Source: Sulfurospirillum sp. | GTDB lineage: Bacteria; Campylobacterota; Campylobacteria; Campylobacterales; Arcobacteraceae | DNA: 64,000 nt | Assembly (NCBI GenBank): GCA_030491005.1 | Contig: JAKZMJ010000001.1 | Location: 186,001 to 250,000 of the forward strand | Reading direction: 5' to 3' | In this document: positions 14,354 to 63,439 of the stretch, piece by piece | How the letters are laid out: every line of letters starts with the position of its first letter | Position numbering within the stretch: position 1 is the stretch's first letter | Notes under the pieces: generated by a model | The model's database searches: none | What the model saw: the letters and a program-made list of their open reading frames with translations, nothing else | Told to the model about the DNA's origin: nothing | Made by a program: the position numbers and the translations under genes

Positions 14354-14368
14354 TTCTAACCTTTTTGT

Positions 14369-14437
14369 TACTTAATAACAAATATTTAAGTACTTGTTTT
14401 TTTTTAAAGAAAATGCTAAATTCAACTTGTTATTAAG
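14369..14437. promoter_or_regulatory. Probable HxlR operator region between divergent genes
   Basis: TACTTAA (14369-14375) and TTAAGTA (14386-14392) form an inverted repeat with 10 bases between. CTTAATAACAA (14371-14381) recurs inverted as TTGTTATTAAG (14427-14437). The symmetric sites lie between hxlR and its divergent neighbour, the position expected for autoregulation and control of the target. Confidence 0.5.
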
Positions 14438-14474
14438 AGTATATCATATATTAATTAAATAAGGAGATTCTAAA

Positions 14475-15916: not shown

Positions 15917-15925
15917 ATCTACCAA

Positions 15926-15983
15926 TTATCTTCTTTGTATATTTTTTATAATTTCAATGAAAACTATACAAAGACGAAGATAA
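15926..15983. terminator. Long imperfect inverted repeat after the hydrolase gene
   Basis: TTATCTTCTTTGTATA (15926-15941) pairs with TATACAAAGACGAAGATAA (15965-15983) with a small bulge and a 23-base loop. It follows the hydrolase stop and abuts the left end of the IS256 remnant. It could be a terminator or a trace of another insertion. Confidence 0.4.
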
Positions 15984-16019
15984 ATTAGAGAGTGTAAATA
16001 TAATAGGATTACACATGAA

Positions 16020-16495
16020 TTTGGTAAACCATTAAGAATTAAAAAAACAATTAGCATCTGGAGAATTAACATCTTTGGATAATATTACTGCAGAGTTTAA
16101 AAACATACTCAAAGAAGTAATACAGACTGCATCACAAAAAGAAATAATAGGTATTTGGATAGGCGAGAATGAAACTAGTAAGTACTGGCTTACTGTTTTA
16201 AATGATATTAAAAAAGAGGTGTTGAAGATGTGCTTACATTTGCAATAGATGGTTTAAATGGATTTAATGAAGAAATCAAAGCCATTTACCCAAAACTAGC
16301 AAATGCGATTTTACGAAGTAAAAAGTTTCCTTGAAAAGTAGAGATATAAAGATGTATAGTCCATCAAATAAGAAGCTCTCTATAGGTTTGTATCTTGGAA
16401 AGATAGAAAAGCAGTTGCAAAAGATTTAAAATCAGTCTATACTGCATTAAGTGAAGAAGATGGTCAAATAGCACTAACAGAGTTTAATGACTTAT
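16020..16495 (+). pseudogene. IS256 transposase, 5' half (internally deleted, frameshifted)
   Basis: Translation gives LASGELTSLDNITAEF, then an abrupt join to the IS256 core EIIGIWIGENETSKYW, which implies loss of a few hundred bases between. After a frameshift near 16215 it continues GVEDVLTFAIDGLNGF. A stop after RSKKFP (16334) is followed by remnants of the CIVHQIRxS region and the KDLKSVYTALSEEDG helix, ending in LTEFNDL. The frame resumes exactly at 21594 with LWGKKYP once the composite transposon and one copy of ACTTAT are removed. Confidence 0.85.
16490..16495 (+). repeat. 6 bp target-site duplication, left copy (ACTTAT)
   Basis: ACTTAT immediately precedes the left end of IS481 copy 1; the same hexamer follows the right end of IS481 copy 2 at 21594-21599. 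Only the outermost flanks match, which marks 16496-21593 as one transposed unit. Confidence 0.85.
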
Positions 16496-17587
16496 TGTCC
16501 AGTTTCACCACGTTATGGTTGCCTAGTTTCATAAATAAGAAAGTGATAGATTAAACAACATAAGTGTAAAATCTTTACAACACATAAGGATTTAAAATAT
16601 GTCACAAACCTATCACTCTAATGCTAGAACAAACCAGCACATAAGAGAAATAATACAGAAATCTAATTTAACAAATGTTGAATTAGCAAATAATTATAAT
16701 CTAAATATTAAAACTATCTCTAAATGGAAAGATAGGGATTTTATTGAAGATAAAAGTTCAAGACCACATAATATAAAAACAACTTTAACATCTTTAGAAA
16801 AAGAGTTAATAAAAGTAGTTAGGACAATGACTTGGATGGAGCTAGATGACTTAACAGATACAATAGTTGATATTATCCCAAATGCAAATAGAAGTAATAT
16901 CTATAGAACTCTAAAAGCCTTTGATATAAATAGAGTCCCACAAGAACAAAAAGAAAAAGCAAAGAAATTTAAAGAATACGAACCTGGATATTTGCATATA
17001 GATGTAACCTATTTACCAAAGTTTGATAAACAAAAGTTTTATCTATTTGTAGCAATAGACAGAGCTACAAGGCTACTATATTACAAAGTATATGAAAACA
17101 AATCATCTAATAATGCAGTTGAATTTCTAAAAGTTTGTAAAGAGTTTTTTCCTTTTTACTTAACTCATATTTTAACAGATAATGGATTGGAATTTACAGA
17201 TAAATGGGCAAGAGGCAAAGGAATTGTAAGTGGTAATCACAAGTTTGATGTAGAATGTAAAGAAGATAGTATAGAACATAGACTAACAGCTCCATATACA
17301 CCACAAACCAATGGAATGGTAGAAAGAGTAAACGGAACTATTAAAAATGCTACAATCAAAGCCCAAGACTATGAAAATATAGATGATGTTAAAAAAGATT
17401 TAAATAAATTTTTGATATACTACAACTTCAATAGAAGACATGGTTCTTTAAGAAAAGAATTAAAAGTGAGAACTCCATTTGATGCAGTTCAAAGTTGGTT
17501 TCAAACGAAGCCTGAAATATTTAAGATTTTACCAGATGTGTTTCAAAATATTGCTTTTGAAATGGTACAACGTGGTGAAACTTGACA
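16496..17587 (+). mobile_element. IS481-family insertion sequence, copy 1
   Basis: Terminal inverted repeats: the left end starts TGTCCAGTTTCACCACGTT; the right end, read inverted, starts TGTCAAGTTTCACCACGTT. One transposase gene fills the 1092 bp. Nearly identical to copy 2 at 20501, so both are recent. Confidence 0.93.
16599..17585 (+). CDS. IS481-family transposase (copy 1)
   Basis: A 328-residue DDE recombinase. An N-terminal helix-turn-helix (about 14-47, LTNVELANNYNLNIKTISKWK) precedes the rve integrase core with D in YLHIDVTYLP, D in ILTDNGLEFTD and E in NGMVERVNGTIK. The C-terminus after the YYNFNRRHGSL motif differs from copy 2 because of a 1-base difference close to the end. RBS AAGGA precedes the ATG. 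The full catalytic triad is present, so it is probably functional. Confidence 0.94.
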   Translation: MSQTYHSNARTNQHIREIIQKSNLTNVELANNYNLNIKTISKWKDRDFIEDKSSRPHNIKTTLTSLEKELIKVVRTMTWMELDDLTDTIVDIIPNANRSNIYRTLKAFDINRVPQEQKEKAKKFKEYEPGYLHIDVTYLPKFDKQKFYLFVAIDRATRLLYYKVYENKSSNNAVEFLKVCKEFFPFYLTHILTDNGLEFTDKWARGKGIVSGNHKFDVECKEDSIEHRLTAPYTPQTNGMVERVNGTIKNATIKAQDYENIDDVKKDLNKFLIYYNFNRRHGSLRKELKVRTPFDAVQSWFQTKPEIFKILPDVFQNIAFEMVQRGET

Positions 17588-17671
17588 ATCCTAAGAGATA
17601 ATATTGTTTATGGTAAGTCTGACCCATTTAATATGGAACAATGGAGTAAAAATAATTTTAAGGAAGAGAGA

Positions 17672-18298
17672 ATGCATAATATAATTAAGAATATTAAAAA
17701 TAAAGGAATTGATAATTTTGATTATCAATTGATATATACAGATAATGAAATTAATAATATTATTAAAATTTGTAAAGAAGTTCCTTTAGAACGAGTAATG
17801 ATAGGAGATGCTAGTGAAAAAAATGATTTATTTGTAGGAAGATTTATGAATGATATTGCTGGTCAAAAACCTTTCTTAGTAAATAACGAATTAGCTAATT
17901 CTATCATGAATATACTTTTAAATAATAAATCTAAAAAAAATTTTTCAAATTTATTTAAAGACAATTATATAATAAGAAGAGTTCAATTAAATAGCATGAG
18001 AAAAAATTCTTTTATAGGATTACATTTAGATACTGATAGTAATCCAGACTATGATTATAATGTAATTATTAACTTAAGTTGTAACTATGAATCAGGGATC
18101 TTTACTTATTATATTAACAACATCCCATATAGTATTCGTCCAAAAAAAAATAGTATAACAATATCAAGGTGTGATATTTTACATGAAGTAAAAAAAGTAG
18201 AATCTGGAGAAAGAATAACATTAGTTTTCTTTTTAAGTAAAAATACAGGTATTAATCAATCAAAGAAGCAGAAGGCTAACTATGCAAACGCAGAATAA
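17672..18298 (+). CDS. 2-oxoglutarate/Fe(II)-dependent oxygenase
   Basis: The open frame reaches back into the IS481 end, but ATG 17672 has a strong Shine-Dalgarno (AAGGAAGAGAG) and gives a complete 208-residue protein. Double-stranded beta-helix signature: His118-x-Asp120 in GLHLDTDS, distal His171 in DILHEVKK, and Arg181 in GERITLVFF to bind 2-oxoglutarate. This resembles prolyl-4-hydroxylase-type small oxygenases that act on amino acids or peptides; the substrate is unknown. It overlaps the EamA transporter gene by 17 bases, a coupled pair. It is cargo of the composite transposon. The fold call is good, the exact subfamily uncertain. Confidence 0.78.
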   Translation: MHNIIKNIKNKGIDNFDYQLIYTDNEINNIIKICKEVPLERVMIGDASEKNDLFVGRFMNDIAGQKPFLVNNELANSIMNILLNNKSKKNFSNLFKDNYIIRRVQLNSMRKNSFIGLHLDTDSNPDYDYNVIINLSCNYESGIFTYYINNIPYSIRPKKNSITISRCDILHEVKKVESGERITLVFFLSKNTGINQSKKQKANYANAE

Positions 18299-19178
18299 AA
18301 CCTTATTATTTAATCCTGAGGTTCTAGGATTCCTTGCAGTTTTTGCATTTTCATTTACACTACCTTTAACAAAGATATTAACAAGCAGTATGAATGCTTA
18401 CCAAATTGGAATTGGAAGAACATTAATTGCCAGTATAGTTGCATTAATATTAGTGATTATTTTAAAATATAATTTACCAAATAAACATCAGATTAAAAGA
18501 TTATTATTGGCTTCACTTGGAATATCTTTTGGTTTTCCTATTTTAGTAGGTATCGGAATGAACTTTGTACCCTCATCTCATGGTTCATTAATGTTGTCTA
18601 TTTTACCTATTTTAACCGCAATATTTGGGAAAATCTATGGTAAAGAAAAACCAACAATAAAATTTTGGTTTTTTTCTTTATTAGGATGTCTAGTAGTTAT
18701 AATATATTCTATATATTCAAATAATATAAAAAATTTATATTATGGAGACATTGCATTATTCTTTGCTGTACTATTTGCTGCCTTTGGTTATGGAATGGGA
18801 GGAATAGTAGCTAAAGAAATTGGTGGTCCAAAAACTATACTTTGGATTTTAGTCCTTTCTTTACCAATTACATTACCTATTAGTATTTATTTATTTTGGG
18901 AATATGATTATAGTGTATTAAATAATCTAGATTTATTTTCTCTTCTCTTTTTAAGTTTAATTAATTCATTATTTGGATTTTTTCTTTGGTATCATGCTTT
19001 AGCAAAAGGTGGTATAATTAAGATATCTCAAATACAACTTTTTCAACCATTTTTAACTTATACTATAGGGATAATAATGCTTTCCGAAACAATTGACTGG
19101 TATATACTTATTCTTAGTATATTAGTTTTGTTTTTAATCCGAGCGATAAGAAAAGAGCCTATAATTAATATTAAATAA
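18282..19178 (+). CDS. EamA/DMT-family transporter
   Basis: A 298-residue inner-membrane protein with about ten hydrophobic segments in two EamA repeats. Seen are the N-terminal repeat with FAFSFTLPLTK and GMNFVPSSHGSLMLSILPILTAIFGKIYGKE, and the C-terminal repeat with LINSLFGFFLWYHALAKGG and LFQPFLTYTIGIIMLSE. Family members export amino acids and other small metabolites. Overlap with the oxygenase gene suggests it handles that enzyme's product or substrate, an inference from coupling. RBS AGAAGG lies inside the oxygenase reading frame. Confidence 0.88.
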   Translation: MQTQNKTLLFNPEVLGFLAVFAFSFTLPLTKILTSSMNAYQIGIGRTLIASIVALILVIILKYNLPNKHQIKRLLLASLGISFGFPILVGIGMNFVPSSHGSLMLSILPILTAIFGKIYGKEKPTIKFWFFSLLGCLVVIIYSIYSNNIKNLYYGDIALFFAVLFAAFGYGMGGIVAKEIGGPKTILWILVLSLPITLPISIYLFWEYDYSVLNNLDLFSLLFLSLINSLFGFFLWYHALAKGGIIKISQIQLFQPFLTYTIGIIMLSETIDWYILILSILVLFLIRAIRKEPIINIK

Positions 19179-19267
19179 TAAATTTGAAGAAAAAAAATTA
19201 TATTACAAAAAATTTAGGTCGTGTACAATAACCTGTTTCAGAATCTAGTAATTTCTAAAATTGAATC

Positions 19268-19832
19268 ATTAATCTAAAAAAGGGTTAATTCCCCGTACCC
19301 TTGGGTCGTTAACAAGTTAGCTATAATAGAGATATGAGAGATGAACATATATATAAAAGTCATAATAAGACTTTACTACTATATCATTTGGTATTTCCAG
19401 CTAAATATAGAAAAAAAGTATTTGATAATAAAATAGATAAAAAACTTAGAGAAGTATGTATTGATATATCTCAAAGATATGAAATTGTATTTGTAGAAAT
19501 TGGTAATGATGAAGATCATGTACATTTTTTAGTTCAAAGTGTACCAACAATATCTGTAACTAAACTAGTAACTACAATAAAAAGTATAACAGCAAGAGAG
19601 ATATTTAAACAATTTCCTCAATTAAAAAAAGAAATGTGGGGTTCAAGTCTTTGGACAAGTGGATATTATGTAAATACAGTTGGACTCTACGCAAGTAAAG
19701 ATACAATTAAAAATTATATTAAAAATCAAGGCTCAAATGAAAAAGAATATGTCAAAATATATGATGGACAATTAAAGTTTGATTTATAGAAAAAGATACC
19801 CCGTACCCTTGGGTCGGTGGAGCATCATTTCA
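19268..19832 (+). mobile_element. IS200/IS605-family element, copy 1
   Basis: The stretch shared with copy 2 runs from about ATTAATCTAAAAAAGGG to GGAGCATCATTT. Both ends carry the imperfect palindrome CCCCGTACCCTTGGGTCG, the subterminal hairpins recognised by Y1 transposases. Only tnpA is present, no tnpB. The element sits inside the composite transposon. Confidence 0.88.
19334..19789 (+). CDS. tnpA: IS200-type Y1 transposase TnpA (copy 1)
   Basis: HUH-superfamily single-strand transposase of 151 residues, normal length for the family. The HUH motif is HVHFLVQ (about 62-68); the catalytic Tyr lies in the segment WTSGYYVNTVGLYAS. A -10 element TATAAT sits at 19322-19327, only seven bases before the ATG, so the mRNA may be leaderless. 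It differs from copy 2 by one residue (Thr versus Ile after SVP). Confidence 0.95.
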   Translation: MRDEHIYKSHNKTLLLYHLVFPAKYRKKVFDNKIDKKLREVCIDISQRYEIVFVEIGNDEDHVHFLVQSVPTISVTKLVTTIKSITAREIFKQFPQLKKEMWGSSLWTSGYYVNTVGLYASKDTIKNYIKNQGSNEKEYVKIYDGQLKFDL

Positions 19833-19835
19833 GGT

Positions 19836-19857
19836 AGTGTAAATTTATATTTACACT
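19836..19857. terminator. Hairpin downstream of the relaxase fragment
   Basis: AGTGTAAAT (19836-19844) pairs perfectly with ATTTACACT (19849-19857) around a 4-base loop, just past the relaxase stop on the minus strand. There is no clear T-run. The sequence also resembles the IS256 end at 15988, so it may be a terminator or an IS relic. Confidence 0.4.
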
Positions 19858-20088
19858 CTCTCTATCGACATACTTCGGCTCTTTCTCGTTGCCTATGTAT
19901 TTTAGGTTTAGCTACTATCTGATTATCTTTCTCTAGTTTAGGGATACGCTCCTCAACTATCTTACATCTACCCAATAACTTTTTATTAATAGGCTGATTC
20001 TCTAAAAACTTATCTATTTCTATCTTGGTTTCTCTCGTAATATTTGACTTAAATGATTTATCAAGAACTTTTCTAACCTTATTTATAA

Positions 20089-20376
20089 TTATTTCTCTTG
20101 TATCTCGATATAGTTCTTTAAGTCTATTTCCAATTCTTGAAAGTCTATTAATTGGTCTTGCATGGTCTGCAACTTTTGCCAAATTAACTCTTGATTGTTC
20201 GATAAGCTTTTGTTGTTCTCCTCGAATTTGTCCAGCTCGTTCTTGAAGCTCTGTGCCGTCTTTTCTAAGTGTTTGATAAACTCTGATTCTTGTTTGTCTA
20301 ATCTCTGCAAAAGTTCTATGTTTAACTTTTCGCTCGTTTGTAATTCTTGCGATAATTGATTCTCTAGTGCTGTCAT
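20089..20376 (-). CDS. MbeD/MobD-like coiled-coil protein nested in the relaxase gene
   Basis: A 95-residue, strongly heptad-like protein starting MTALENQLSQELQ, similar in style to the short MbeD/MobD mobilization accessories of ColE1-type plasmids. It starts directly after the stop codon of the preceding gene fragment, with GGGGAAATAA upstream as a Shine-Dalgarno. It is entirely within the relaxase fragment in another frame. Both frames look protein-like, as expected for real overlapping genes. Confidence 0.6.
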   Translation of the reverse strand: MTALENQLSQELQTSEKLNIELLQRLDKQESEFIKHLEKTAQSFKNELDKFEENNKSLSNNQELIWQKLQTMQDQLIDFQELEIDLKNYIEIQEK

Positions 20377-20500
20377 TTATTTCCCCTTTATTTCCCAAAA
20401 ATAAAATGTCGTGTTTGCTTCCTCTTGGTATTGAACTGTTATTGTAAAGTATGTCACTATTGCTATTACTGATATTGTTCCTATCACTCCCATTACTAAC
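20377..20500 (-). pseudogene. 3' end of an MbeB/MobB-like gene, cut by IS481
   Basis: Forty codons are open from the IS481 junction: a hydrophobic segment (VMGVIGTISVIAIVTYFTI) followed by a short polar tail ending EIKGK, with the stop directly before the nested coiled-coil gene. A C-terminal membrane segment fits MbeB-type proteins. Too short for sequence-based proof. Confidence 0.45.
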
Positions 20501-21593
20501 TGTCCAGTTTCACCACGTTATGGTTGCCTAGTTTCATAAATAAGAAAGTGATAGATTAAACAACATAAGTGTAAAATCTTTACAACACATAAGGATTTAA
20601 AATATGTCACAAACCTATCACTCTAATGCTAGAACAAACCAGCACATAAGAGAAATAATACAGAAATCTAATTTAACAAATGTTGAATTAGCAAATAATT
20701 ATAATCTAAATATTAAAACTATCTCTAAATGGAAAGATAGGGATTTTATTGAAGATAAAAGTTCAAGACCACATAATATAAAAACAACTTTAACATCTTT
20801 AGAAAAAGAGTTAATAAAAGTAGTTAGGACAATGACTTGGATGGAACTAGATGACCTAGTAGATACAATGGTTGATATTATCCCAAATGCAAATAGAAGT
20901 AATATCTATAGAACTCTAAAAGCATTTGATATAAATAGAGTCCCACAAGAACAAAAAGAAAAAGCAAAGAAATTTAAAGAATACGAACCTGGATATTTGC
21001 ATATAGATGTAACCTATTTACCAAAGTTTGATAAACAAAAGTTTTATCTATTTGTAGCAATAGACAGAGCTACAAGGCTACTATATTACAAAGTATATGA
21101 AAACAAATCATCTAATAATGCAGTTGAATTTCTAAAAGTTTGTAAAGAGTTTTTTCCTTTTTACTTAACTCATATTTTAACAGATAATGGATTGGAATTT
21201 ACAGATAAATGGGCAAGAGGCAAAGGAATTGTAAGTGGTAATCACAAGTTTGATGTAGAATGTAAAGAAGATAGTATAGAACATAGACTAACAGCTCCAT
21301 ATACACCACAAACCAATGGAATGGTAGAAAGAGTAAACGGAACTATTAAAAATGCTACAATCAAAGCCCAAGACTATGAAAATATAGATGATGTTAAAAA
21401 AGATTTAAATAAATTTTTGATATACTACAACTTCAATAGAAGACATGGTTCTTTAAGAAAAGAATTGAAAGTCAGAACTCCATTTAATGCAGTTCAGAGT
21501 TGGTTTCAAACGAAACCTGAAATATTTAAGATTTTACCAGATGTGTTTGAAAGATATTGTTTTTGGAATGGTACAACGTGGTGAAACTTGACA
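20501..21593 (+). mobile_element. IS481-family insertion sequence, copy 2
   Basis: Same terminal repeats and orientation as copy 1, with 103 bases before the transposase in both. 1093 bp because of one extra base near the right end. Right-hand member of the composite transposon; followed by the second ACTTAT at 21594. Confidence 0.93.
20604..21584 (+). CDS. IS481-family transposase (copy 2)
   Basis: A 326-residue DDE transposase identical to copy 1 except for a few substitutions (for example LVDTM versus LTDTI near residue 86) and a different last stretch after PDVF caused by a 1-base difference. The catalytic D, D, E are intact. Either copy could drive movement of the whole unit. Confidence 0.94.
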   Translation: MSQTYHSNARTNQHIREIIQKSNLTNVELANNYNLNIKTISKWKDRDFIEDKSSRPHNIKTTLTSLEKELIKVVRTMTWMELDDLVDTMVDIIPNANRSNIYRTLKAFDINRVPQEQKEKAKKFKEYEPGYLHIDVTYLPKFDKQKFYLFVAIDRATRLLYYKVYENKSSNNAVEFLKVCKEFFPFYLTHILTDNGLEFTDKWARGKGIVSGNHKFDVECKEDSIEHRLTAPYTPQTNGMVERVNGTIKNATIKAQDYENIDDVKKDLNKFLIYYNFNRRHGSLRKELKVRTPFNAVQSWFQTKPEIFKILPDVFERYCFWNGTTW

Positions 21594-21886
21594 ACTTATG
21601 GGGTAAAAAGTATCCAAATATTACTGTTTCTTGGACAAACCACTGGAATGAATTAGCTACTTTTTTTAAATATCCTCAATCCGTTAGAACTTTAATTTAT
21701 ACCATAAATCAATAGAATCACTAAATGCCACTATAAAACGAAAGACAAAATCTAAAGGTTCATTTCCTACAGTTGAATCAGCTTTTAAACTATTATATCT
21801 ATCAATTCAACAGCAACAATTAAAATGGGAGGCAAGTAGAGTTAGAGGCTGGAATGAAATTTATCCTCAACGAAGTCATATTTTTT
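21594..21886 (+). pseudogene. IS256 transposase, 3' half
   Basis: Begins with the second ACTTAT and reads LWGKKYPNITVSWTNHW, ELATFFKYPQSVRTLIYTIN, then after a frameshift IESLNATIKRKTKSKGSF and SAFKLLYLSIQQQQLKWE, ending RGWNEIYPQRSHIF. This is the IS256 C-terminal region with the catalytic Glu segment (IESLN). It completes the 5' half at 16020-16495. Confidence 0.88.
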
Positions 21887-22013
21887 AGAGAAATTGTGTC
21901 AAAATACGAGAAGTAATTAAAAGAAACTGGTGGGTTTACACAGTTTATTTTACACTCTCACAGTTTATTTTACACTCTCATAAATAAATAAGGGAGTGTT
22001 AGAATACCAAGTC

Positions 22014-22826
22014 TTACTTTGTTTTAGCTATACGAAAACCATTATTGTAGTAATGACTATCAGGTTTTACATCATAACGAACGGTATTACTAACATACCT
22101 AGCAATATTGAGCCAACTACCTCCACGAAGAACCTTGCGATTTTTATCGCAATTTTCAGTATATGTTTTTGTATAACAACTACTAGTCCACTCATATACA
22201 TTTCCATACATATCATAAAGTTTAAATTTATTTGGTTTTTTCTTCCCTACTGGATGAGTTTTATTTCCACTATTCTTAGAATACCAAGCATAATCTTTTA
22301 AATTAGATTCTATTTTACCAAAATGCCATTTTGTTTTTGAACCAGCTCTTGCACTATATTCCCATTCTTCTTCTGTTGGAAGTCTATATTTATTTGTATT
22401 TTCTTTTTTATTTAGTTTTAGTATAAACTCTTGTGCATCATAATAGCTTATATATTCAACTGGATTATTTTTACCATCATATCCTAATTTTTCTTTTGTA
22501 AAAAAAGACGGTCTTTCCTTCATTATTGAATAGTATTGCATTTGTGTTATTTTTGTTGTGGCCATATAAAAATTTCTTACTTTTACTTTATGTCTAGGTG
22601 TTTCATTTATATGTATATAATTATTTTGTTTTACACAATTACTAAGCTTATCTACTGATAAATTATTTTTTTGGCAATTTAAACTATTTATAGCTGTACC
22701 CATCATAAAACTTCCACCTTGTATTTCTACAAACCTTATGCCAATTGAGTTTGTAAAATTTTTCGAATGTAGTATGGTTGAAACCAATAATATAGTTAAT
22801 AAAATACTAGATGATGGCTGTTTCAT
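22014..22826 (-). CDS. Secreted SUMF1/FGE-sulfatase-domain protein
   Basis: A 270-residue protein with a signal peptide (SSSILLTILLVSTILHS) and a formylglycine-generating-enzyme-type domain: FVEIQGGSFMMGT, ETPRHKVKVRNFYM, NPVEYISYYDAQEF, YRLPTEEEWEYSARAG, LYDMYGNVYEWTSS, LRGGSW and a terminal NGFRIAK. The Cys pair that does catalysis in true FGE, after RGGSW, is absent (RGGSWLNIARYVSNTVRY). This is therefore one of the many non-FGE SUMF1 proteins, perhaps a binding domain or another C-H/C-S enzyme. Its promoter and RBS region (CTCCTT on this strand) is homologous to the one in front of the gene at 14475. Confidence 0.85.
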   Translation of the reverse strand: MKQPSSSILLTILLVSTILHSKNFTNSIGIRFVEIQGGSFMMGTAINSLNCQKNNLSVDKLSNCVKQNNYIHINETPRHKVKVRNFYMATTKITQMQYYSIMKERPSFFTKEKLGYDGKNNPVEYISYYDAQEFILKLNKKENTNKYRLPTEEEWEYSARAGSKTKWHFGKIESNLKDYAWYSKNSGNKTHPVGKKKPNKFKLYDMYGNVYEWTSSCYTKTYTENCDKNRKVLRGGSWLNIARYVSNTVRYDVKPDSHYYNNGFRIAKTK

Positions 22827-22834
22827 TATTTCTC

Positions 22835-22945
22835 CTTGTTTAATTAATATACGATATATCTTATTTTATAGAATAATTTAGCATTTTTTTCAAAAAAAAA
22901 CAAGTACTTAAATATTTGTTAGAGAGTAACAAAAAGGTTAGAAAC
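22835..22945. repeat. Inverted, diverged copy of the hxlR divergent promoter
   Basis: Read on the plus strand, this matches the reverse complement of about 14360-14470. Long shared blocks include TTTAATTAATATA, TTTAGCATTTT, ACAAGTACTTAAATATTTG and GTAACAAAAAGGTTAGAAA. The central block holding one TTGTTATTAAG half-site is replaced. The element thus places an HxlR-type promoter in front of the SUMF1 gene, while the hxlR coding sequence beyond it is not recognisable. Confidence 0.8.
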
Positions 22946-23039
22946 GATATATAAAACATCAACTTATTAAAAAATATACTTACATAAAAATTTAGATGAA
23001 GTTCAATAATATAGTATTAAAAAGAATTTTCTGGATTAT

Positions 23040-23294
23040 AAACAAGAAGAAAAAATGTCTATTTTGTGAAAATAAAAATGATAAAAAAAAACCAAATAAA
23101 GAATTATTAAAAACTTTTGATAATATTAAAACAATCATTCCTGTAAAAAACATAAAATTCCTTTTGAACAAATAGAGGAGCTATTAATTCAAGCAGATAT
23201 GGAATATAAAATTGGCGAAACACAAGAGGCTTTAATCAAGTTCTCCCCTGATGATTTTGTAGATGCACTATTAGATGAGATTTATCAAGAATAA
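23040..23294 (+). pseudogene. ftsY remnant (diverged 5' piece joined to an identical 3' end)
   Basis: About 23097-23210 matches codons near the start of the ftsY NG domain (IPVKK-IKFPF, EELLIQADMEYE), roughly 80 % alike and containing a frameshift. It then jumps to the last 84 bases of ftsY, identical to 12419-12502. The G1 to G4 GTPase motifs are deleted, so it is nonfunctional. It forms the left flank of repeat copy 2. Confidence 0.88.
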
Positions 23295-24847
23295 TTATGC
23301 GAAAAACCATATTTAAACATATTAATTTAGGAGAAACCTTACCTATTAATAATGTTCATTCTGTTTCTGTATCTATGCCAAAATTACAAGATGTTATTGA
23401 TTATGAGAAATTAGTTCCTAAGGTACTTGATAAAATAAAAAGTGCCTATCCTCGATTTATGATACACCCATATTTAAAAATACTTGCAAATTTTATTAAA
23501 GATAAATATAATATTCCAAATGATTATGAAGTAGTATTACTAAATTCAAAAGAAGATGTTCAAATATTTAGTAAAACATATTATATTAACAATAAAATAG
23601 ATATCAATGAACCTTTTGGAGTGATTTTACTTATAAAAGATACTTGTCAATTACAAAAAGTATTATCTTTTATTCAGTATATAGGATGTAATTTATCTTC
23701 AAGATTTGCCGAAGATTATTTGTACAAAAATAAACTAATAAACACTATACAAAAAGAAATAAGTTTAGATAAAAATATAGCAAAAAACTCTTTGTTAAAA
23801 TATTTATCATCAATATATGAACAAAAAATTGAAAATATTTGTTTAACTCCTTCTGGAATGAATGCAATTTATTGTGTATTAAAAGCTTTGAAGAATATTC
23901 AAAGAAGAAATTCAAGAAATATTTTTATTCAATTTGGCTGGTTATTTTAGACACCATGAATATTATAAAAGAATTTTATAATGAAAACAAAATATTTTAT
24001 GATATTGATAATCTTGATATCTTAGAAGATTATTTAAAACAAAATGGTTTTAATGTTTGTTCTATTATTACAGAAATACCTACAAATCCTTTATTACAGT
24101 GTGTTGATTTAGAAAGATTAAAACAACTTTGTATTAAATATAATATTCCTTTAATAATAGATTGTACTATTTCAACACCTTTGAATATTGATTTTAAAAA
24201 ATATGCTGATATTTATATTGAATCTTTAACAAAATTTGCCTGTGGAAATGCAGATGTACTAATGGGTTGTTTTATTCTAAATGAAAATTCAAAAATATCT
24301 CATATAAAAAATGAATTTTTCAAACATACTTCTTTGCCATATATAAGAGATATTCAACGCTTAGCTTATGAAATACAAGATTACAAAGTAAGAATATCGC
24401 AAATAAGCTCAAATACAGTAAAACTAATCAAATATCTAAAAAAATGTTCTTATGTTAAAAAAGTTTATCATTGTATGCAAGAAGAGAATAAAGACAACTA
24501 TAAAAAACTTATGAGAACCAATAAATCATATTCTGGTCTTATTTCTTTAATCTTTACAAAAGACTTTAAAAGTGTTTATGATAAATTAAATTTTCCAAAA
24601 GGTCCTAGTTTGGGTACAAATTTTACACTTCTTATGCCTTATGTTTATCTTGCTCATTATGATTTAATCATTTGTAAAGAAGGTCAAGAATTATTAAAAA
24701 TGAATAATATTCCTATTGATTTATTAAGAGTATCTGTGGGTACTGAAAATATTGATGATATTATTGGTGAATTTAAAAGAATAGAAAATTTATTGTAAAA
24801 TAAGACAATCGTCAAATTGGTGTTTCTTTAGGGTCTAACATTTCTTT
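23211..24847 (+). repeat. Copy 2 of the 1.64 kb direct repeat
   Basis: Matches 12419-14056 with an offset of 10792 bases, changing to 10791 after a 1-base deletion near 23946. A substitution at 24551 changes Ser to Ile in the product. Left flank: diverged ftsY. Right flank: diverged hxlR 3' end. Confidence 0.93.
23297..24798 (+). pseudogene. Frameshifted second copy of the Cys/Met-type PLP enzyme gene
   Basis: Same start and stop as the gene at 12505 but one A is missing in GGTTATTTTAG (near 23946), so the frame breaks after residue 216 (FIQFGWLF). The remainder, including the Schiff-base Lys segment ESLTKFACG, is readable in another frame from about 23950. Otherwise only one residue differs. 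The break is recent; a short PLP-domain protein could still be made from an internal start, but an active full-length enzyme could not. Confidence 0.9.
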
Positions 24848-24890
24848 TCCCAAGCAAATAACATTTTAAAATTGAAAAAAGTCTTTTAGC
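24799..24890 (-). pseudogene. Remnant of the hxlR 3' end
   Basis: Matches 14008-14100, identical to about 24847 and then diverged with several small deletions (CAAGCAAATAACATTTTAAAATTG versus the intact version). About 25 codons of the C-terminus remain. Marks the right edge of the duplicated locus. Confidence 0.8.
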
Positions 24891-24900
24891 TTAAAAACTA

Positions 24901-24940
24901 TGATATACTTCTGATATATCACTGATATTTATTGTATAAT
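24901..24940 (+). promoter_or_regulatory. Promoter of the hydroxyproline operon with three TGATAT repeats
   Basis: TGATAT occurs at 24901, 24912 and 24923, exactly 11 bases apart; the middle one is part of the perfect palindrome TGATATATCA (24912-24921). A good -10 element, TATAAT, follows at 24935-24940. The phasing on one face of the helix suggests a regulator site, possibly for the GntR protein at 36080. Confidence 0.55.
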
Positions 24941-24969
24941 ATTAATTAAAAAAATTAAAAAGGAAAAAA

Positions 24970-25872
24970 ATGACTTGTAATTTTATTGGAGTATATCCAG
25001 CAGTAACAACAAAGTTTAACTCAAATGACGAGGTAGATTATGATGCTTGTATGAAAGGCGTTCAAGCACAATTAGATGCAGGAGTTCATGGTATCATTTT
25101 AGGTGGGACATTAGGAGAAGCTAGTACTTTAAGTGCATTAGAAAAAACTACACTTTTAGAAACTACAGTTAAGTATGTAAATGGTGCAGTTGTTGTATTA
25201 AACATAGCAGAACAAACAACCAAAGATGCTATACAAGTAGCAATTAAAGCTAAAGCTTCAGGAGCTTCAGGGCTTATGCTTTTACCTCCCATGCGATATG
25301 CAAGTGATGATAAAGAAACTCTTACTTATTTTAAAGCAATAGCAGATGCAACTAATTTACCAATTATGATATATAATAATCCAGTTGATTATAAAGTTGA
25401 AGTTACACTTGATATGTTTGAAGAGTTAAAATCTTGCCCTACAATACAAGCTGTAAAAGAAACTACTAGAAAAATCTCAAATGTTACGAAGATGATAAGT
25501 AGATTTGGAGATAGATTTAAAATAATGTGTGGAGTTGATACTTTAGGTTGTGAAGCTCTTATGATGGGGGCTCATGGTTGGGTTGCTGGTCTTGTTTGTG
25601 CATTTCCAAAAGAAACAGTTGCTATTTATGAATTAATAAAACAAAATAGACACGCCGAAGCATTAGAGATTTATAGATGGTTTTTACCATTATTAGAACT
25701 TGACATTAATACAAAATTAGTGCAAAACATAAAGTTAGCAGAAAGTGCTGTTGGACTTGGAAATGAGTATGTTAGAGAACCAAGACTTCCATTATACGGA
25801 AAAGAAAGAGCTTGTGTCCAAGCTATTATAGATACAGGTATAAAAAATAGACCAACACTGCCAAAACTATAG
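24970..25872 (+). CDS. DapA/NAL-family lyase, probable 1-pyrroline-4-hydroxy-2-carboxylate deaminase
   Basis: TIM-barrel class I aldolase-type enzyme of 300 residues. Seen are the N-terminal VYPAVTTKF, GTLGEASTLS, the Tyr in PIMIYNNPVDY and the Schiff-base Lys in IQAVKETTRK. On fold alone it could be dihydrodipicolinate synthase or another lyase. The following 2-oxoglutarate semialdehyde dehydrogenase, 4-hydroxyproline epimerase and D-amino-acid dehydrogenase point to deamination of 1-pyrroline-4-hydroxy-2-carboxylate to 2-oxoglutarate semialdehyde. First gene of the island, RBS AAAAAGGA. The specific activity is inferred from context. Confidence 0.8.
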   Translation: MTCNFIGVYPAVTTKFNSNDEVDYDACMKGVQAQLDAGVHGIILGGTLGEASTLSALEKTTLLETTVKYVNGAVVVLNIAEQTTKDAIQVAIKAKASGASGLMLLPPMRYASDDKETLTYFKAIADATNLPIMIYNNPVDYKVEVTLDMFEELKSCPTIQAVKETTRKISNVTKMISRFGDRFKIMCGVDTLGCEALMMGAHGWVAGLVCAFPKETVAIYELIKQNRHAEALEIYRWFLPLLELDINTKLVQNIKLAESAVGLGNEYVREPRLPLYGKERACVQAIIDTGIKNRPTLPKL

Positions 25873-25924
25873 AACATAAATTAAAGAAGAGAAAAATATA
25901 AAAATATAGAACAAAGGATAAAAA

Positions 25925-27508
25925 TTGAGTATTCATGGTAAAAATTTTATAGGAAACAAGCTTAGTGCTACTGGTGATAAAAGTAGTAAGATTTATGATA
26001 TAAACAGTGGAAATGCACTTGATGGTGATTTTTATCATGCTACAAGTTATGAGGTAAATACTGCGTTGCAATTAGCAAACAAAGCTTTTATTGTATATAA
26101 ACAAAAAACACAAAATCAAAGAGCAGATTTTTTAGATGCAATTGCAGATGAAATTATGAACTTAGGAGATGAGCTTATTCTTAGAACTATGAGTGAATCA
26201 AATCTTCCACGACCACGAATTGAAGGAGAGAGAGGCAGAACCATGGGTCAAATAAAGATGTTTGCTACATTATTGAGAGATGGCTCTTGGGTTGAAGCTT
26301 CTATAGATACTGCATTACCAAATAGAACTCCCTTAGCAAGAAATGATTTAAGAAAAATGTTACGACCTTTAGGAATAGTTAGTGTTTTTGAAGCAAGTAA
26401 TTTTCCTTTGGCTTTTGCTTGTGCAGGTGGAGATACTGCCTCAGCACTAGCAGCAGGTTGCCCTGTAATTGTAAAAGCACATAGTTCTCATAGTGGAACT
26501 TCTGAGCTAATTGCAAGTGCAATTATAAAAGCAGTAAAAAAATGTGATATGCCAAGTGGAACATTTTGTATGGTTCATGGTAGTGGTAGAAGTGTAGGGC
26601 AACAAATAGTAATGGATGAGAGGGTTAAAGCTGTAGGATTTACAGGTTCAACACAAGGGGGAATGAACTTATTTAATATTGCAAATAAAAGAAAAACTCC
26701 TATTCCTGTGTTTGCAGAAATGGGAAGTATTAATCCTTGTGTATTTTTACCTTCTTCTTTAGAAGATACTAAAAAATTAGCTTCCATGTATGCGTTTTCT
26801 ATTACTTTAGGAGTAGGGCAGTTTTGTACAAACCCAGGACTTATACTAGCTATTAAAGGTGCTAAATTAGAAGAATTTAAAAGTGATTTAAAAAAAGAGA
26901 TTGAAGCTTCAAGTCCAGCTATTATGCTTTCAAAAAGTATTCAAGAATCATATGAAGAAAATAAAAATAAAGCTATTGAACAAGATGGAATTATCTTGTT
27001 AGCCCAAGCAACACAAGAAAATACATCTTCTCAAGGTAGAGCTGTTTTTACAAGTGTTGATGCAGAAGTATTTATACAAAATAATAAACTTCAAGAAGAA
27101 GTTTTTGGACCTTATTGTTTATTAGTAGAATGTAAAGATATAAAAGAATTAAATGAAGCCATATCTTGTTTAGATGGACAATTAACAGCCACGGTTATGG
27201 GTTCAAATAGCGAAATTGTTGAACATATTAATCTAATATCTAATTTAGAGAACAAATGTGGAAGAATATTATTTAATTCTGTTCCAACTGGTGTTGAAGT
27301 ATGCCATTCTATGCAACACGGGGGTCCATTTCCAGCTTCAACTGATTCGCGATTTACTTCTGTTGGTACGGGCGCTATTAAAAGATTTGTTCGTCCTGTT
27401 TGTTTTCAAGACTGCCCAAGTGAGATTTTACCACAAGAGCTTAAAGATGAAAATCCTCTAAATATTTTTAGAATTCTAAACGGTGAGAATACAAAGAATA
27501 GCGTATGA
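25925..27508 (+). CDS. 2-oxoglutarate semialdehyde dehydrogenase (ALDH family)
   Basis: A 527-residue NAD(P)-dependent aldehyde dehydrogenase, the length typical of the long KGSA dehydrogenase group. Motifs: FEASNFPLAFACAGGDTASALAAG (coenzyme loop), FTGSTQGG, Glu in AEMGSINP and catalytic Cys in GVGQFCTNPG. It oxidises 2-oxoglutarate semialdehyde to 2-oxoglutarate, the last step of 4-hydroxyproline breakdown. Translation begins with TTG at 25925, with AGGA upstream at normal spacing; no in-frame ATG precedes the conserved region. Its stop overlaps the next start by 4 bases (ATGA). Confidence 0.87.
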   Translation: MSIHGKNFIGNKLSATGDKSSKIYDINSGNALDGDFYHATSYEVNTALQLANKAFIVYKQKTQNQRADFLDAIADEIMNLGDELILRTMSESNLPRPRIEGERGRTMGQIKMFATLLRDGSWVEASIDTALPNRTPLARNDLRKMLRPLGIVSVFEASNFPLAFACAGGDTASALAAGCPVIVKAHSSHSGTSELIASAIIKAVKKCDMPSGTFCMVHGSGRSVGQQIVMDERVKAVGFTGSTQGGMNLFNIANKRKTPIPVFAEMGSINPCVFLPSSLEDTKKLASMYAFSITLGVGQFCTNPGLILAIKGAKLEEFKSDLKKEIEASSPAIMLSKSIQESYEENKNKAIEQDGIILLAQATQENTSSQGRAVFTSVDAEVFIQNNKLQEEVFGPYCLLVECKDIKELNEAISCLDGQLTATVMGSNSEIVEHINLISNLENKCGRILFNSVPTGVEVCHSMQHGGPFPASTDSRFTSVGTGAIKRFVRPVCFQDCPSEILPQELKDENPLNIFRILNGENTKNSV

Positions 27509-28437
27509 ACTATATAGATGCTAAAACAATAAATGAAGTTTTAGATTATCCTTCATTAATAGAAGCTTTAAGACAAGCTTTTATTAGTGATATTAAAGTA
27601 CCACCAAGGCATCATCATGATTTTAAAAATCCAAAAGAAGGTATTGACTCTACTTTATTATTAATGCCTGCATGGGAAGAAAGTGAAGCATTAGGAGTTA
27701 AAATTGTAACAGTTAGTCCTAATAATGCTAAATACGATTTACCATCAATTCAAGGATTATATCTTTTATTTGATGCACAAAAAGGTGGTATTGAAGCTTT
27801 AATGGACGGAAAAGCATTAACAGCTAAACGAACAGCAGCAGCTTCTGCCTTAGCTAGTAGTTATTTATCAAGAAAAAATTCAAGCTCTATGCTTATGGTT
27901 GGAACTGGAGCTTTAAGTATAGAGTTAATAAAAGCACACTCATGTGTACGAAATATCAAAGATGTATATATATGGGGTAGAAATAAAAATAAAGCTTTAA
28001 AAATAGTAGAGAGCTTAAAAAATGATTTTAATATAAAAGCAGTTTCTAGTATAGAAGATGTTATTTCAAAGGTAGACATAATCTCTTGTGCTACATTAAG
28101 TGCTACACCTTTACTTTTTGGAAAAGATTTAAAAGCAGGTCAACATTTTGATTTAGTAGGTGCTTATAAACCTAATATGAGAGAAGCAAATGATGACTTA
28201 ATAAAAAAAGTTGATATTTTTATAGATACGCAAATGGCTACAAAAGAAACAGGAGATATTAAAATACCTTTAGATAAAGGCATTATAAGCTTAGAAGATA
28301 TTCAAGCTGATTTATTTGATTTGTGTAGAGGTTTACATAAAGGTAGACAAAATAGTGAACAAATTACATTATTTAAATCAGTTGGACATGGCTTAGAAGA
28401 TTTAGCAGCTGCTAAGTTAGTAAAAGCAAAGATATAA
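27505..28437 (+). CDS. Ornithine cyclodeaminase/mu-crystallin family protein, probable pyrroline-2-carboxylate reductase
   Basis: A 310-residue Rossmann-fold protein with the family's PPRHHHDF, GVKIVTVSPNN, LTAKRTAAASALASSYL, nucleotide-binding LMVGTGALS and HFDLVGAYKPNMREA. In hydroxyproline clusters, members of this family reduce 1-pyrroline-2-carboxylate to L-proline, the step after trans-3-hydroxyproline dehydratase (35009). A true ornithine cyclodeaminase is the alternative. Translationally coupled to the KGSA dehydrogenase. Confidence 0.82.
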   Translation: MNYIDAKTINEVLDYPSLIEALRQAFISDIKVPPRHHHDFKNPKEGIDSTLLLMPAWEESEALGVKIVTVSPNNAKYDLPSIQGLYLLFDAQKGGIEALMDGKALTAKRTAAASALASSYLSRKNSSSMLMVGTGALSIELIKAHSCVRNIKDVYIWGRNKNKALKIVESLKNDFNIKAVSSIEDVISKVDIISCATLSATPLLFGKDLKAGQHFDLVGAYKPNMREANDDLIKKVDIFIDTQMATKETGDIKIPLDKGIISLEDIQADLFDLCRGLHKGRQNSEQITLFKSVGHGLEDLAAAKLVKAKI

Positions 28438-28500
28438 ATAAACATATAACATATAACATATATAATTAGGCGAAGATGAAGATGAAGTTTAGGAGAAAAT

Positions 28501-29505
28501 ATGTCTTGTAAAACATTTTTTTGTGTAGATGCACATACTTGTGGTAATCCAGTTAGAGTAGTCGTTGGTGGTGCTCCTTTGTTAAAAGGTTCTAATATGA
28601 GTGAAAAAAGACAGCACTTTTTAAAAGAGTTCGATTGGATTAGAACAGGGCTTATGTTTGAACCACGAGGTCATGATATGATGAGTGGAACTATAATATT
28701 CCAACCATCAAGTGATGATTTTGATGTAAGTATATTATTTATAGAAACAAGTGGTTGTTTACCTATGTGTGGACATGGAACTATTGGAACAGTTACAGTG
28801 TTAATAGAAAAAGAGATAGTTAGCCCTAAAACAGAAGGAATACTTCGTATTGAAACACCAGCAGGATTAGTTATTGCAACATATAAAAGGGATGATAAAA
28901 ATAGAGTTAAATCTGTAAAAATAGTAAATGTTCCTTCTTTTTTACACTCAAGTAATCTTGAAGTTACATCATCTATTTTAGGAAAACTTAGAGTTGATGT
29001 AGCTTATGGTGGAAACTTTTATGCCATTGTTGATTACCAAGAAAATTTTTCTGGCATTCAAGATTTTACAGCTTCTCAATTAATTACAATGAGTAATGAA
29101 TTAAGAGATAAATTAAATAAACAATATTCTTTCGTCCACCCTTTAAATAAAACAATTTGTGGTTTAAGCCATATTGAATGGTCAGGAGATACTATTTCTA
29201 AAACATCAACTGCTAGAAATGCAGTTTTTTATGGAAGTAAAGCAATAGATAGATCACCTTGTGGCACAGGCACATCAGCTCGTATGGCACAGTGGTATAC
29301 AAAAGGAAAATTAAAAAAAGGTGATACTTTTATTCATGAAAGTTATATAGGTTCTATTTTTAAAGGTCTTATTGAAGATGAGGTAAAAATAGGAACTTAT
29401 GATGGAATTATTCCATCCATTGAGGGTTGGGCAAAAATTACAGGATTAAATACCATTACTATTGATGATGATGATCCTTATGCCCACGGTTTTGTAGTTG
29501 TATAA
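28501..29505 (+). CDS. 4-hydroxyproline 2-epimerase (proline racemase family)
   Basis: Cofactor-free epimerase of 334 residues. Both catalytic cysteines are present: Cys90 in LPMCGHGTIG and Cys254 in DRSPCGTGTSA. The Cys/Cys pair separates racemases and epimerases from the Cys/Thr dehydratases of the family, one of which is at 35009. In this setting it converts trans-4-hydroxy-L-proline to cis-4-hydroxy-D-proline, the substrate of the dehydrogenase at 29732. Proline racemase is less likely given the neighbours. RBS AGGAGAA. Confidence 0.9.
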   Translation: MSCKTFFCVDAHTCGNPVRVVVGGAPLLKGSNMSEKRQHFLKEFDWIRTGLMFEPRGHDMMSGTIIFQPSSDDFDVSILFIETSGCLPMCGHGTIGTVTVLIEKEIVSPKTEGILRIETPAGLVIATYKRDDKNRVKSVKIVNVPSFLHSSNLEVTSSILGKLRVDVAYGGNFYAIVDYQENFSGIQDFTASQLITMSNELRDKLNKQYSFVHPLNKTICGLSHIEWSGDTISKTSTARNAVFYGSKAIDRSPCGTGTSARMAQWYTKGKLKKGDTFIHESYIGSIFKGLIEDEVKIGTYDGIIPSIEGWAKITGLNTITIDDDDPYAHGFVVV

Positions 29506-29646
29506 GTTAAAATATAATTTTAGACATTTTGTTAAAATTAAAATATAACTTTTATATAACTTTAATATTATTTATGGAATAGTATTAAAGAAAAATTAGT
29601 ACTACTTTTTGTAATACTAATATTTATTTATAAAGAGAGTTAGAAT

Positions 29647-29739
29647 ATGAAACATAGTATACATATAAATTTACATACTAACTTAGAGATTAATTTTAAG
29701 ATTAACTCATACATTAATTACTTGGATTTTTATGAGTAA
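29647..29739 (+). CDS. Possible 30-residue leader ORF overlapping the dehydrogenase start
   Basis: ATG at 29647, preceded by AAAGAGAG, opens a 30-codon frame (starts MKHSIHINLHTN) that ends with TAA 3 bases inside the next gene, overlapping it by 8 bases. The dehydrogenase has no strong RBS of its own, so the small ORF could couple its translation. It resembles nothing I know and may be chance. Confidence 0.3.
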   Translation: MKHSIHINLHTNLEINFKINSYINYLDFYE

Positions 29740-30979
29740 AATCGCAATTATTGGTGGTGGTATTATTGGACTTTGTAGTGCTTATTATTTACATAAAAGT
29801 GGTCATGAAGTTTGTATTTTTGATTCAAATGAATTAGGAAAGCAGTGTTCATATGGAAATGCTGGTTTACTTGTACCTAGTCATTTTGAAACTCTAGCAA
29901 ATCCAAGTATTTTAAAAAAAGGTTTAATGTGGATGTTAAATCCTAATTCGCCATTTTTTTTAAAACCACGACTTGATATGGATTTATTAAAATGGATTAT
30001 AAAATTTAGTTCATTTTGTACGAATAAACATGTACAAAACAATCAACATTTTTTAAGAGATATAAACTTATATAGTTTGGATTTATATAAAGATTTATTA
30101 AATAATAGTGACTTAGATTTTACTTTAAATCAAAATGGTCTTCTAATGTTATGTCAAAAAGAATCTACTTTACAAGATGAAGAAAGAGCTGTGCAAAATG
30201 CAAATAAATTAGGTCTAAAGGCTAAAATATTAAATGTAGAAGAAATAAAAAAACTCGAACCAAATGCTTCTTTTAATGCTATAGGTGCTTCATATTTTAA
30301 AGATGACTCTACTATACAGCCTTATGATTTTATGAATAGTATTAAAAAATATTTATTAAAGAATAATGTTAAAATTTATGAAAATTGTAAAATACAAAAC
30401 TTTATTTTAAAAAATAATCAAATAAAATCTATAATAACAAATGAAAATGAAAAATATGAAGCAGATGAATTCGTTTTAAGTTCTGGAATTTTTTCTACTA
30501 AATTGGCGAATAAATTAAATTTAAATCTTTTAATGCAAGCAGGAAAAGGTTTTTCTTTTACCGTTCCTAAAAATGATGCTTTAAATTTTAAAACTCCTAT
30601 GATTTTAGTAGAACAAAAAATCGCAATTACTCCTTATGATTCTTATATAAGATTTGGTGGGACTATGATGATTTGTGGAAACGATTTATCAATAAATCAA
30701 AGAAGAATTAATAATATAAGAAAATATTCAAATAATTATATAAATAATTTAAATATACAACAAGAAGATATGAATGACTTATGGGCAGGTTTAAGACCTT
30801 GTTCACCTGATGGGCTTCCTTATATTGGAAAAGCAAAGATATCAAATCTAGTTGTTGCAAGTGGACATGCTATGATGGGGGTTTCACTAGGACCTGCAAG
30901 TGGAAAAATTGTAAGTGATTTAATAAATGAAAAGAAAACACAAATAAATATAAAAAGAATGACTTTATATAGATTTTAA
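29732..30979 (+). CDS. FAD-dependent D-amino-acid dehydrogenase (DadA-like), probable D-hydroxyproline dehydrogenase
   Basis: A 415-residue DAO-superfamily flavoprotein with the dinucleotide-binding IIGGGIIGLCSAYYL at the N-terminus and the C-terminal WAGLRPCSPDGLPYIG and ASGHAMMGVSLGPASGK typical of DadA. It feeds electrons to the respiratory chain. Within this island it is expected to oxidise cis-4-hydroxy-D-proline to 1-pyrroline-4-hydroxy-2-carboxylate; D-alanine or D-proline are alternatives. The 226-base gap before it carries only the small leader ORF. Confidence 0.85.
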   Translation: MSKIAIIGGGIIGLCSAYYLHKSGHEVCIFDSNELGKQCSYGNAGLLVPSHFETLANPSILKKGLMWMLNPNSPFFLKPRLDMDLLKWIIKFSSFCTNKHVQNNQHFLRDINLYSLDLYKDLLNNSDLDFTLNQNGLLMLCQKESTLQDEERAVQNANKLGLKAKILNVEEIKKLEPNASFNAIGASYFKDDSTIQPYDFMNSIKKYLLKNNVKIYENCKIQNFILKNNQIKSIITNENEKYEADEFVLSSGIFSTKLANKLNLNLLMQAGKGFSFTVPKNDALNFKTPMILVEQKIAITPYDSYIRFGGTMMICGNDLSINQRRINNIRKYSNNYINNLNIQQEDMNDLWAGLRPCSPDGLPYIGKAKISNLVVASGHAMMGVSLGPASGKIVSDLINEKKTQINIKRMTLYRF

Positions 30980-31101
30980 TATTATTTATATAAACTAAAA
31001 CAATAAAAATAAATTCAAATAAGGAGGGTTCAAAATAATAATAAACACATTAAAGATAAGAAGAAAATATAAACAAAAAAAATTTAAAATTGGAGAAACA
31101 A

Positions 31102-31923
31102 ATGAAAATGATTAAAAAATTAGCGTTTATAGCTGTAGCAATATTAGCTTTAGGTACAAGTGGTGCAAGTGCAGATAAGTTAGATAAAATACTTTCAAAA
31201 GGTAAAATAAGATGTGGTGTTGTTCTTGATTTCCCACCTATGGGATACAGAGATGCTAGAAATAAACCTGCTGGTTTTGATGTTGAGTATTGTAAAGATT
31301 TAGCAAAAGCTTTAGGTGTTAAATTAGAGCTTAAGTCTATGTCATTTGCACAAAGATTACCAGCACTTAATGCAGGAAAAGTTGATGTAGTTATTGGTTC
31401 AACATCTGATACTTTACAAAGAGCAAAATCAGCTGGTTTTACTATGCCTTATTTTGTATTTAAATTACAAGCTATGGTTAAAAAAGATTCTGGAATTAAT
31501 TCTTTTTCTGATTTAAAAGGTAAAAAAGTAACAGCAGCATTAAGTACAACTCCAGAAACTGAATTTTTAAAAAATTCTAAAAAAAATGGATGGAATTCTT
31601 CTAATTACTTTTCTTCAAAATCTGAAAATGATACTCACTTAGCACTTTTACAAGGTAAAGCAGATGCTATTATTACAACTGATACAACTATTGTTGAATT
31701 ATTAAAATTAGCTAAATATAAAAATTATAGAGCTGGTCCTTTTGTTCCTGGTTTTGATGACTTTGTATCAATCATTGTTAAAAGAACTGAATATGGAATG
31801 ATTAATTATATGAATTTATTTATTCATCAACAAGTAAGAACTGGTAGATATGCAGAACTTAATAAAATGTTTTATGGAAATAGTCCTGTTAGAAAACTAA
31901 CAATTGACGGAATTTATTATTAA
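31102..31923 (+). CDS. Polar amino acid ABC transporter, periplasmic substrate-binding protein
   Basis: The open frame starts with an upstream TTG at 31090, but ATG 31102 has GGAG at correct spacing and begins a good signal peptide (MKMIKKLAFIAVAILALGTSGASA). The 273-residue product is a family 3 binding protein: GKIRCGVVLDFPPMGYRD, PAGFDVEYCKDLAKALG, LNAGKVDVVIGSTSDT, LKGKKVTAALSTT, LLQGKADAIITTDT. The ligand is probably hydroxyproline or proline by context. A stem-loop without T-run follows it, probably raising its dosage relative to the permeases. Confidence 0.9.
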   Translation: MKMIKKLAFIAVAILALGTSGASADKLDKILSKGKIRCGVVLDFPPMGYRDARNKPAGFDVEYCKDLAKALGVKLELKSMSFAQRLPALNAGKVDVVIGSTSDTLQRAKSAGFTMPYFVFKLQAMVKKDSGINSFSDLKGKKVTAALSTTPETEFLKNSKKNGWNSSNYFSSKSENDTHLALLQGKADAIITTDTTIVELLKLAKYKNYRAGPFVPGFDDFVSIIVKRTEYGMINYMNLFIHQQVRTGRYAELNKMFYGNSPVRKLTIDGIYY

Positions 31924-31926
31924 ATT

Positions 31927-31956
31927 TGTATTCAAGGCTCTTAAGCCTTGAATACA
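31927..31956 (+). promoter_or_regulatory. Intercistronic stem-loop between binding protein and permease
   Basis: TGTATTCAAGGC (31927-31938) pairs perfectly with GCCTTGAATACA (31945-31956) around a 6-base loop. No T-run follows, so this looks like an mRNA-stabilising or partially attenuating hairpin, a common device for making more binding protein than permease. Confidence 0.65.
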
Positions 31957-31978
31957 TACAATAACATAAGGATTATAT

Positions 31979-32650: not shown

Positions 32651-32652
32651 TT

Positions 32653-34097: not shown

Positions 34098-34101
34098 TTT
34101 T

Positions 34102-34986: not shown

Positions 34987-35008
34987 TGTATTTTAGGAGT
35001 AAATAAAA

Positions 35009-36070: not shown

Positions 36071-36079
36071 AGGAAAAAA

Positions 36080-63303: not shown

Positions 63304-63370
63304 ATTAATCTAAAAAAGGGTTAATTCCCCGTACCCTTGGGTCGCTAAAAAAGTTAGCTATAATAGAGAT

Positions 63371-63439
63371 ATGAGAGATGAACATATATACAAAAGTCAT
63401 AGGGTATCTATTTTGTCAAGAGAATATATTTTATTATGA
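63371..63439 (+). pseudogene. 22-codon false start of tnpA in IS200 copy 2
   Basis: Starts with the ten tnpA codons MRDEHIYKSH, then RVSILSREYILL and a stop that overlaps the true tnpA ATG as TTATGA. It sits directly behind the -10 element TATAAT (63359-63364), so any leaderless transcript would translate this mini-ORF first and reach tnpA by termination-reinitiation. Confidence 0.6.

Follow-up and report, generated by a model that had tools for sequence, protein, structure and literature searches.

A core of near-identical sequence occurs twice in the window (the whole 64,000-nucleotide stretch of DNA that was analyzed, from an Arcobacter-like bacterium), at 12419-14056 (locus A) and 23211-24847 (locus B), in direct orientation on a single contig of 257 kb and with a spacing of 10.8 kb. 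The core is bounded at both loci by sequence that is homologous but much more diverged, and locus B is decaying; this pattern requires that the core was recently transferred from one locus to the other. The explanation that is favored here, with moderate confidence, is a non-reciprocal copying of the core from A into an old, decayed duplicate at B, with a homologous anchor on the right and an illegitimate join on the left.

Results

The two copies of the core

In locus A, on the forward strand, the core comprises the last 84 bp of ftsY, the entire gene of a PLP enzyme and the last 36 bp of an hxlR-type regulator gene. Pairwise alignment with the copy in locus B, also on the forward strand, revealed two differences, a 1-bp deletion (13154 in A, 23945 in B) and a G-to-T substitution (13760 and 24551, respectively), with all other positions identical, and thus confirmed the near-identity that had been claimed from a first reading of the sequence (the original prediction). 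The same reading held that the copied gene was already frameshifted, which is correct: the deletion at 23945 breaks the PLP frame, such that the 500-aa open reading frame of locus A (12505-14007) is split in the open reading frame list into 23297-23950 and 23839-24798, leaving a PLP pseudogene on the forward strand (23297-24798) that carries both changes. A genome-wide search for the core returned exactly two copies, and neither a third copy nor a fragment of the core was found elsewhere in the genome.

The congener comparison was made with one genome, that of Arcobacter sp. BB30, a metagenome-assembled genome (MAG); a search for further species like it in GTDB 220 returned the same MAG alone. 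At both of the differing sites this genome has the state of locus A, and therefore both changes arose in B. The core as a whole differs from that of the congener by ∼8%, and, had A and B been separate for as long as their flanks, the probability of two or fewer differences between the two copies at this level of divergence would be near 10^-55; the core therefore cannot simply be old and slowly evolving. The contrast with the flanks is sharp, with two differences in ∼1637 positions in the core compared with 15/116 in the diverged ftsY fragment on the left (ftsY') and 6/47 in hxlR on the right (Fisher tests, p = 1e-16 and 9e-9, respectively). Taken together, the flanks appear to be old and the core very recent. 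A simple tandem duplication of locus A was considered and ruled out, since the flanks differ by ∼13% and the core by 0.1%.

Locus A and the PLP enzyme

Locus A contains intact genes for FtsY (11549-12502, forward strand; SRP54 GTPase domain, E = 2.5e-70), for the 500-aa PLP enzyme with a Cys/Met metabolism fold (12505-14007, forward strand; PF01053, E = 1.9e-35) and for the HxlR-type regulator (14021-14353, reverse strand; PF01638, E = 2.5e-35). The FtsY protein is 88% identical in the congener, in which the same PLP gene follows it, and the order tlpA-ftsY-PLP is kept there, with a divergence that is even across the left boundary of the core (90% identity for ftsY and 92% for PLP). The PLP gene of the congener is followed by rsmE (contig C222) and not by hxlR, for which no match was found in that genome; contig C222 probably joins C278, judging from ∼98 bp of common end sequence, the last three bases of which differ. 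The adjacency of ftsY and PLP is specific to the genus: the congener has it, and across the remaining genera that were examined ftsY and PLP lie at distant coordinates or on different contigs. In many other Arcobacteraceae a second PLP gene stands beside the first.

The PLP protein scored 322 bits against the BesB family (NF042918), for which the cut-off is 800, and is best described as a full-length relative of BesB that is not assigned to that family. BesB, the nearest named family, belongs to the terminal-alkyne amino-acid pathway of Streptomyces.

Flanks of locus B

The left flank consists of ftsY' (23098-23213, forward strand), which carries a 1-bp frameshift and differs from locus A at 15/116 positions and from the congener at 19/116. 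Its alignment with A, over 116-117 bp, contains 15 substitutions and one 1-bp deletion (87% identity for 23098-23207 compared with 11648-11758). Over the same 117 bp, A and the congener differ at 16/117 positions, so that the divergence between the two loci (13%) is close to that between separate congeneric species (14%). At five sites in the fragment B agrees with the congener and A differs, from which it follows that A itself has changed since its split from ftsY'; these sites rule out the idea that the flanks of B are a recently decayed copy of A.

Maximum-likelihood analysis of the 117 bp placed ftsY' within the genus (bootstrap 96) and paired it with the ftsY of its own genome (bootstrap 73), on a branch three times longer than that of A (0.124 compared with 0.040). 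Judged from this short tree, ftsY' may have separated from the ftsY of A at about the time of the congener split or somewhat later and decayed faster thereafter, or it may derive from an unsampled congener; the data fit either. Among 104 genomes of the family, ftsY' had no relative closer than A and the congener, and the remainder of the left flank had no convincing match.

The right flank is a diverged remnant of the 3' end of hxlR (24848-24892, reverse strand), which in pairwise alignment with 14057-14103 shows four substitutions and two one-base deletions in 47 bp, beyond which the homology ends. Homologous and diverged flanks on both sides had been predicted and are borne out by the alignments; the predicted ftsY identity of 80% was slightly low (86-87%), and the hxlR 3' end, although correctly recognized, is just 45 bp long.

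Junctions and rearrangement of locus B

The two ends of the core are of different kinds. On the right, identity grades into homologous, diverged hxlR sequence, as is expected for the end of a conversion tract. On the left, ftsY' stops at the equivalent of residue 72 of the protein of A and the core resumes at the final 84 bp of ftsY; ∼650 bp (the equivalent of 11767-12418) are absent, and the junction (23211-23213) is a 3-bp microhomology, ATT. This end of the tract is thus a non-homologous join that coincides with the 650-bp gap, and not the homologous end expected of conversion. It represents either an illegitimate join or a deletion that followed conversion.

Further to the left, positions 22831-22956 are an inverted copy (85% identity) of 14341-14467, the region of locus A that contains the start of hxlR and its divergent promoter/operator; the inverted copy ends in a decayed hxlR start. 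Owing to this copy, locus B (22831-24892) is rearranged debris and not a collinear paralogue. The hxlR start piece is oriented opposite to the 3' remnant at 24848-24892 and, if both pieces derive from one gene, at least one inversion would have occurred. Comparison of the intervening sequence (22957-23097) with the final part of tlpA and the beginning of ftsY gave no homology that was significant against shuffled sequences.

A gene for a formylglycine-generating-enzyme-like (FGE, sulfatase-modifying) protein (22014-22826, reverse strand; PF03781, E = 2e-39), without a match in the congener, is now placed on the inverted promoter copy. The two promoter regions are probably an inverted pair of HxlR operator/promoter sequences, and shared regulation with the FGE-like gene is conceivable.

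The segment between the cores

The cores flank, as direct repeats, a segment of 9.15 kb (14057-23210), of which the parts compared with the congener (14000-16500 and the FGE gene) had no match there. The segment contains two direct copies of an IS481-like element (16487-17588 and 20492-21594; 98.4% identical), further copies of which lie on contigs C5 and C31, and an IS200-like element (19267-19830) with a second, 99.6% identical copy at the right end of the window (63303-63932). Apart from transposases, no replication or integration gene was found among the ten proteins searched against families, the open reading frame list between the cores gave no sign of a plasmid or integrase gene, and the GC content showed no contrast that might hint at the origin of the segment.

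Outer boundaries and missing neighbors

The sequence homologous to the hydroxyproline catabolism operon of the congener begins at 24899, 6 bp past the 45-bp hxlR remnant, and this operon and the subsequent genes (24899-36718, forward strand) are collinear with contig C100 of the congener (90% identity). The operon genes (24970-30979), also present in the congener, encode DapA-like, semialdehyde dehydrogenase-like and pyrroline-2-carboxylate reductase-like proteins, a 4-hydroxyproline epimerase and a D-amino-acid dehydrogenase-like protein. Locus B is absent from the single congener; there, rplY and pth precede the operon, which adjoins rplY.

In the congener, rsmE and rplY-pth are the direct neighbors of the two sites that correspond to 14017 and 24899. 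None of rsmE, rplY and pth was detected in the present assembly, which is 97% complete, whereas the same search gave three matches in each of 12 other genomes (G001-G008, the first of these being Arcobacter sp. BB30, and four from other families), and a search for rsmE by itself gave a match in 40 of 41 genomes. The genes that usually accompany rsmE stand here without it: a 134-aa gene that usually abuts it lies next to an ABC transporter, inside a contig of 259 kb, and a cytochrome c1 gene, the other usual neighbor, is on contig C23, where rsmE does not adjoin it. The undetected genes and the position of these neighbors indicate that the A-B region is probably bordered on both outer sides by rearrangement breakpoints. 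The pth gene is normally essential, and for this reason a gap in the assembly is likelier than a real loss of pth.

Discussion

Proposed copying from A into B

The favored explanation can be set out as follows. Locus B would be what is left, in rearranged and non-functional form, of an older second ftsY-PLP-hxlR copy located directly upstream of the hydroxyproline operon, into which ∼1.64 kb of locus A was recently copied without loss from A. The right end would have been resolved by homology within hxlR, as is usual for conversion. The left end would have been joined through 3 bp, at the cost of ∼650 bp of ftsY', in the manner of break repair or of an illegitimate recombination that is anchored by homology on one side. 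Alternatively, an ordinary conversion whose left end was later spanned by a deletion would leave the same footprint and fits equally well. The new PLP copy in B would then have started to decay.

The mosaic pattern, the junctions and the decay of B are observed directly, and the direction of copying, the repair in a single event and the order of ages are inferred from them. The direction from A to B is favored because A has intact genes in the order of the congener, with even divergence across the left boundary of the core, because B is debris with frameshifted and truncated flanks, and because both differences in the core are changes in B. The opposite direction is conceivable, since a core derived from B would be as far from the congener as one derived from A. 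Two features count against conversion, namely the homologous tract end on one side alone and the direct-repeat layout, which also suits a single crossover. Furthermore, the genes expected at both sites from the congener were not found in the assembly, which counts against the preferred explanation.

Gene conversion between two old paralogous loci, one of them possibly acquired from a relative, had originally been proposed. The recently homogenized core between diverged flanks and its homologous right end agree with conversion; the non-homologous left end with its 650-bp gap does not. Similarly, the flanks are old as proposed, but B consists of rearranged remnants and not of an intact diverged copy.

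Alternative explanations

The alternative that survives best, although it is unlikely, is single-crossover (Campbell-type) integration of a circular or duplicated molecule [hxlR ... FGE - ftsY' - core] into a chromosome with the order ftsY - core - hxlR' - operon. The crossover would then have left the cores as direct repeats, and the flank pairs would differ because two molecules contributed them. One step would account for the differing flanks at both ends of both copies, and the cores do flank a 9.15-kb segment, the tested parts of which are absent from the congener; two IS481-like copies and one IS200-like copy lie within this segment. However, the incoming core would have been almost identical beside an ftsY' diverged by 13%, so that a homogenization or capture step would be needed in any case. 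In addition, the deduced order before integration, with PLP beside the operon, is not seen in the congener, and neither the open reading frame list between the cores nor the ten proteins searched against families revealed a plasmid or integrase gene.

An assembly artefact, in which the contig was misjoined at the repeated core, is less probable still. The congener neighbors rsmE, rplY and pth went undetected here and were found in the 12 other genomes searched and, as pth is normally essential, the assembly probably lacks at least some sequence. However, the cores differ at two places, both changes being in B and of the kind seen in pseudogenes, which is not expected of one consensus; the flanks of B are unique sequence and not those of A; and other contigs hold no third core or core fragment. 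Moreover, multi-copy IS copies of 1.1 kb sit inside large contigs elsewhere, so that repeats of such a size were resolved, and the absence of rsmE has a separate explanation in the 134-aa gene beside the ABC transporter.

Import of the entire locus B, including its core, as a diverged allele from an unsampled congener is slightly more doubtful than a misjoin. The distance of ftsY' from A (15/116) resembles that of A from the congener (16/117), and ftsY' falls inside the genus clade (96%). However, a core that is 99.9% identical to A next to flanks that are 13% different is not produced by import alone, and the support for ftsY' beside A is just 73%. Since the pairing in the 117-bp tree reaches just 73%, an in-genome duplicate and an import from an unsampled congener both fit the flank, and the acquisition of one locus from a relative, as originally suggested, is possible. 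That the 9-kb segment is a mobilizable island, entering and leaving by homologous recombination through the PLP gene as a recurrent port and displacing rsmE and rplY-pth, is highly improbable.

Relation to known systems and significance

Copying from A into B would belong with known kinds of events. Ectopic gene conversion between bacterial paralogues is described for the tuf genes (PMC6053082) and, in the same phylum, intragenomic gene conversion for babA/babB of Helicobacter pylori (PMC4552749). As in those cases, a tract of a paralogue would have become near-identical by non-reciprocal copying while its flanks stayed diverged; unlike them, the recipient is debris without function, and ∼650 bp are lost at a left end that is joined without homology. 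Homology-facilitated illegitimate recombination, described for Acinetobacter, Streptococcus and Pseudomonas (work cited in PMC5361080), shares one homologous anchor, one microhomology join and both gain and loss of DNA, which a later deletion on the left would mimic, but here the templates were apparently in the same genome. The layout also recalls Campbell integration in having foreign-looking DNA between direct repeats of a crossover region, and differs from it in that neither a circular element nor an integrase gene was identified and in that the identity of the core far exceeds that of the flanks.

The event is a trace of ordinary DNA recombination of a known kind in an unusually scrambled region. 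It adds no new class of mechanism; in practice it is useful for checking assemblies and gene-content calls near a breakpoint at which usually universal genes were not found. It offers a clean, datable case in which recombination patched a decayed duplicate in a genome of the Campylobacterota, and a caution that near-identical gene copies may sit within remnants far older than the copy itself.
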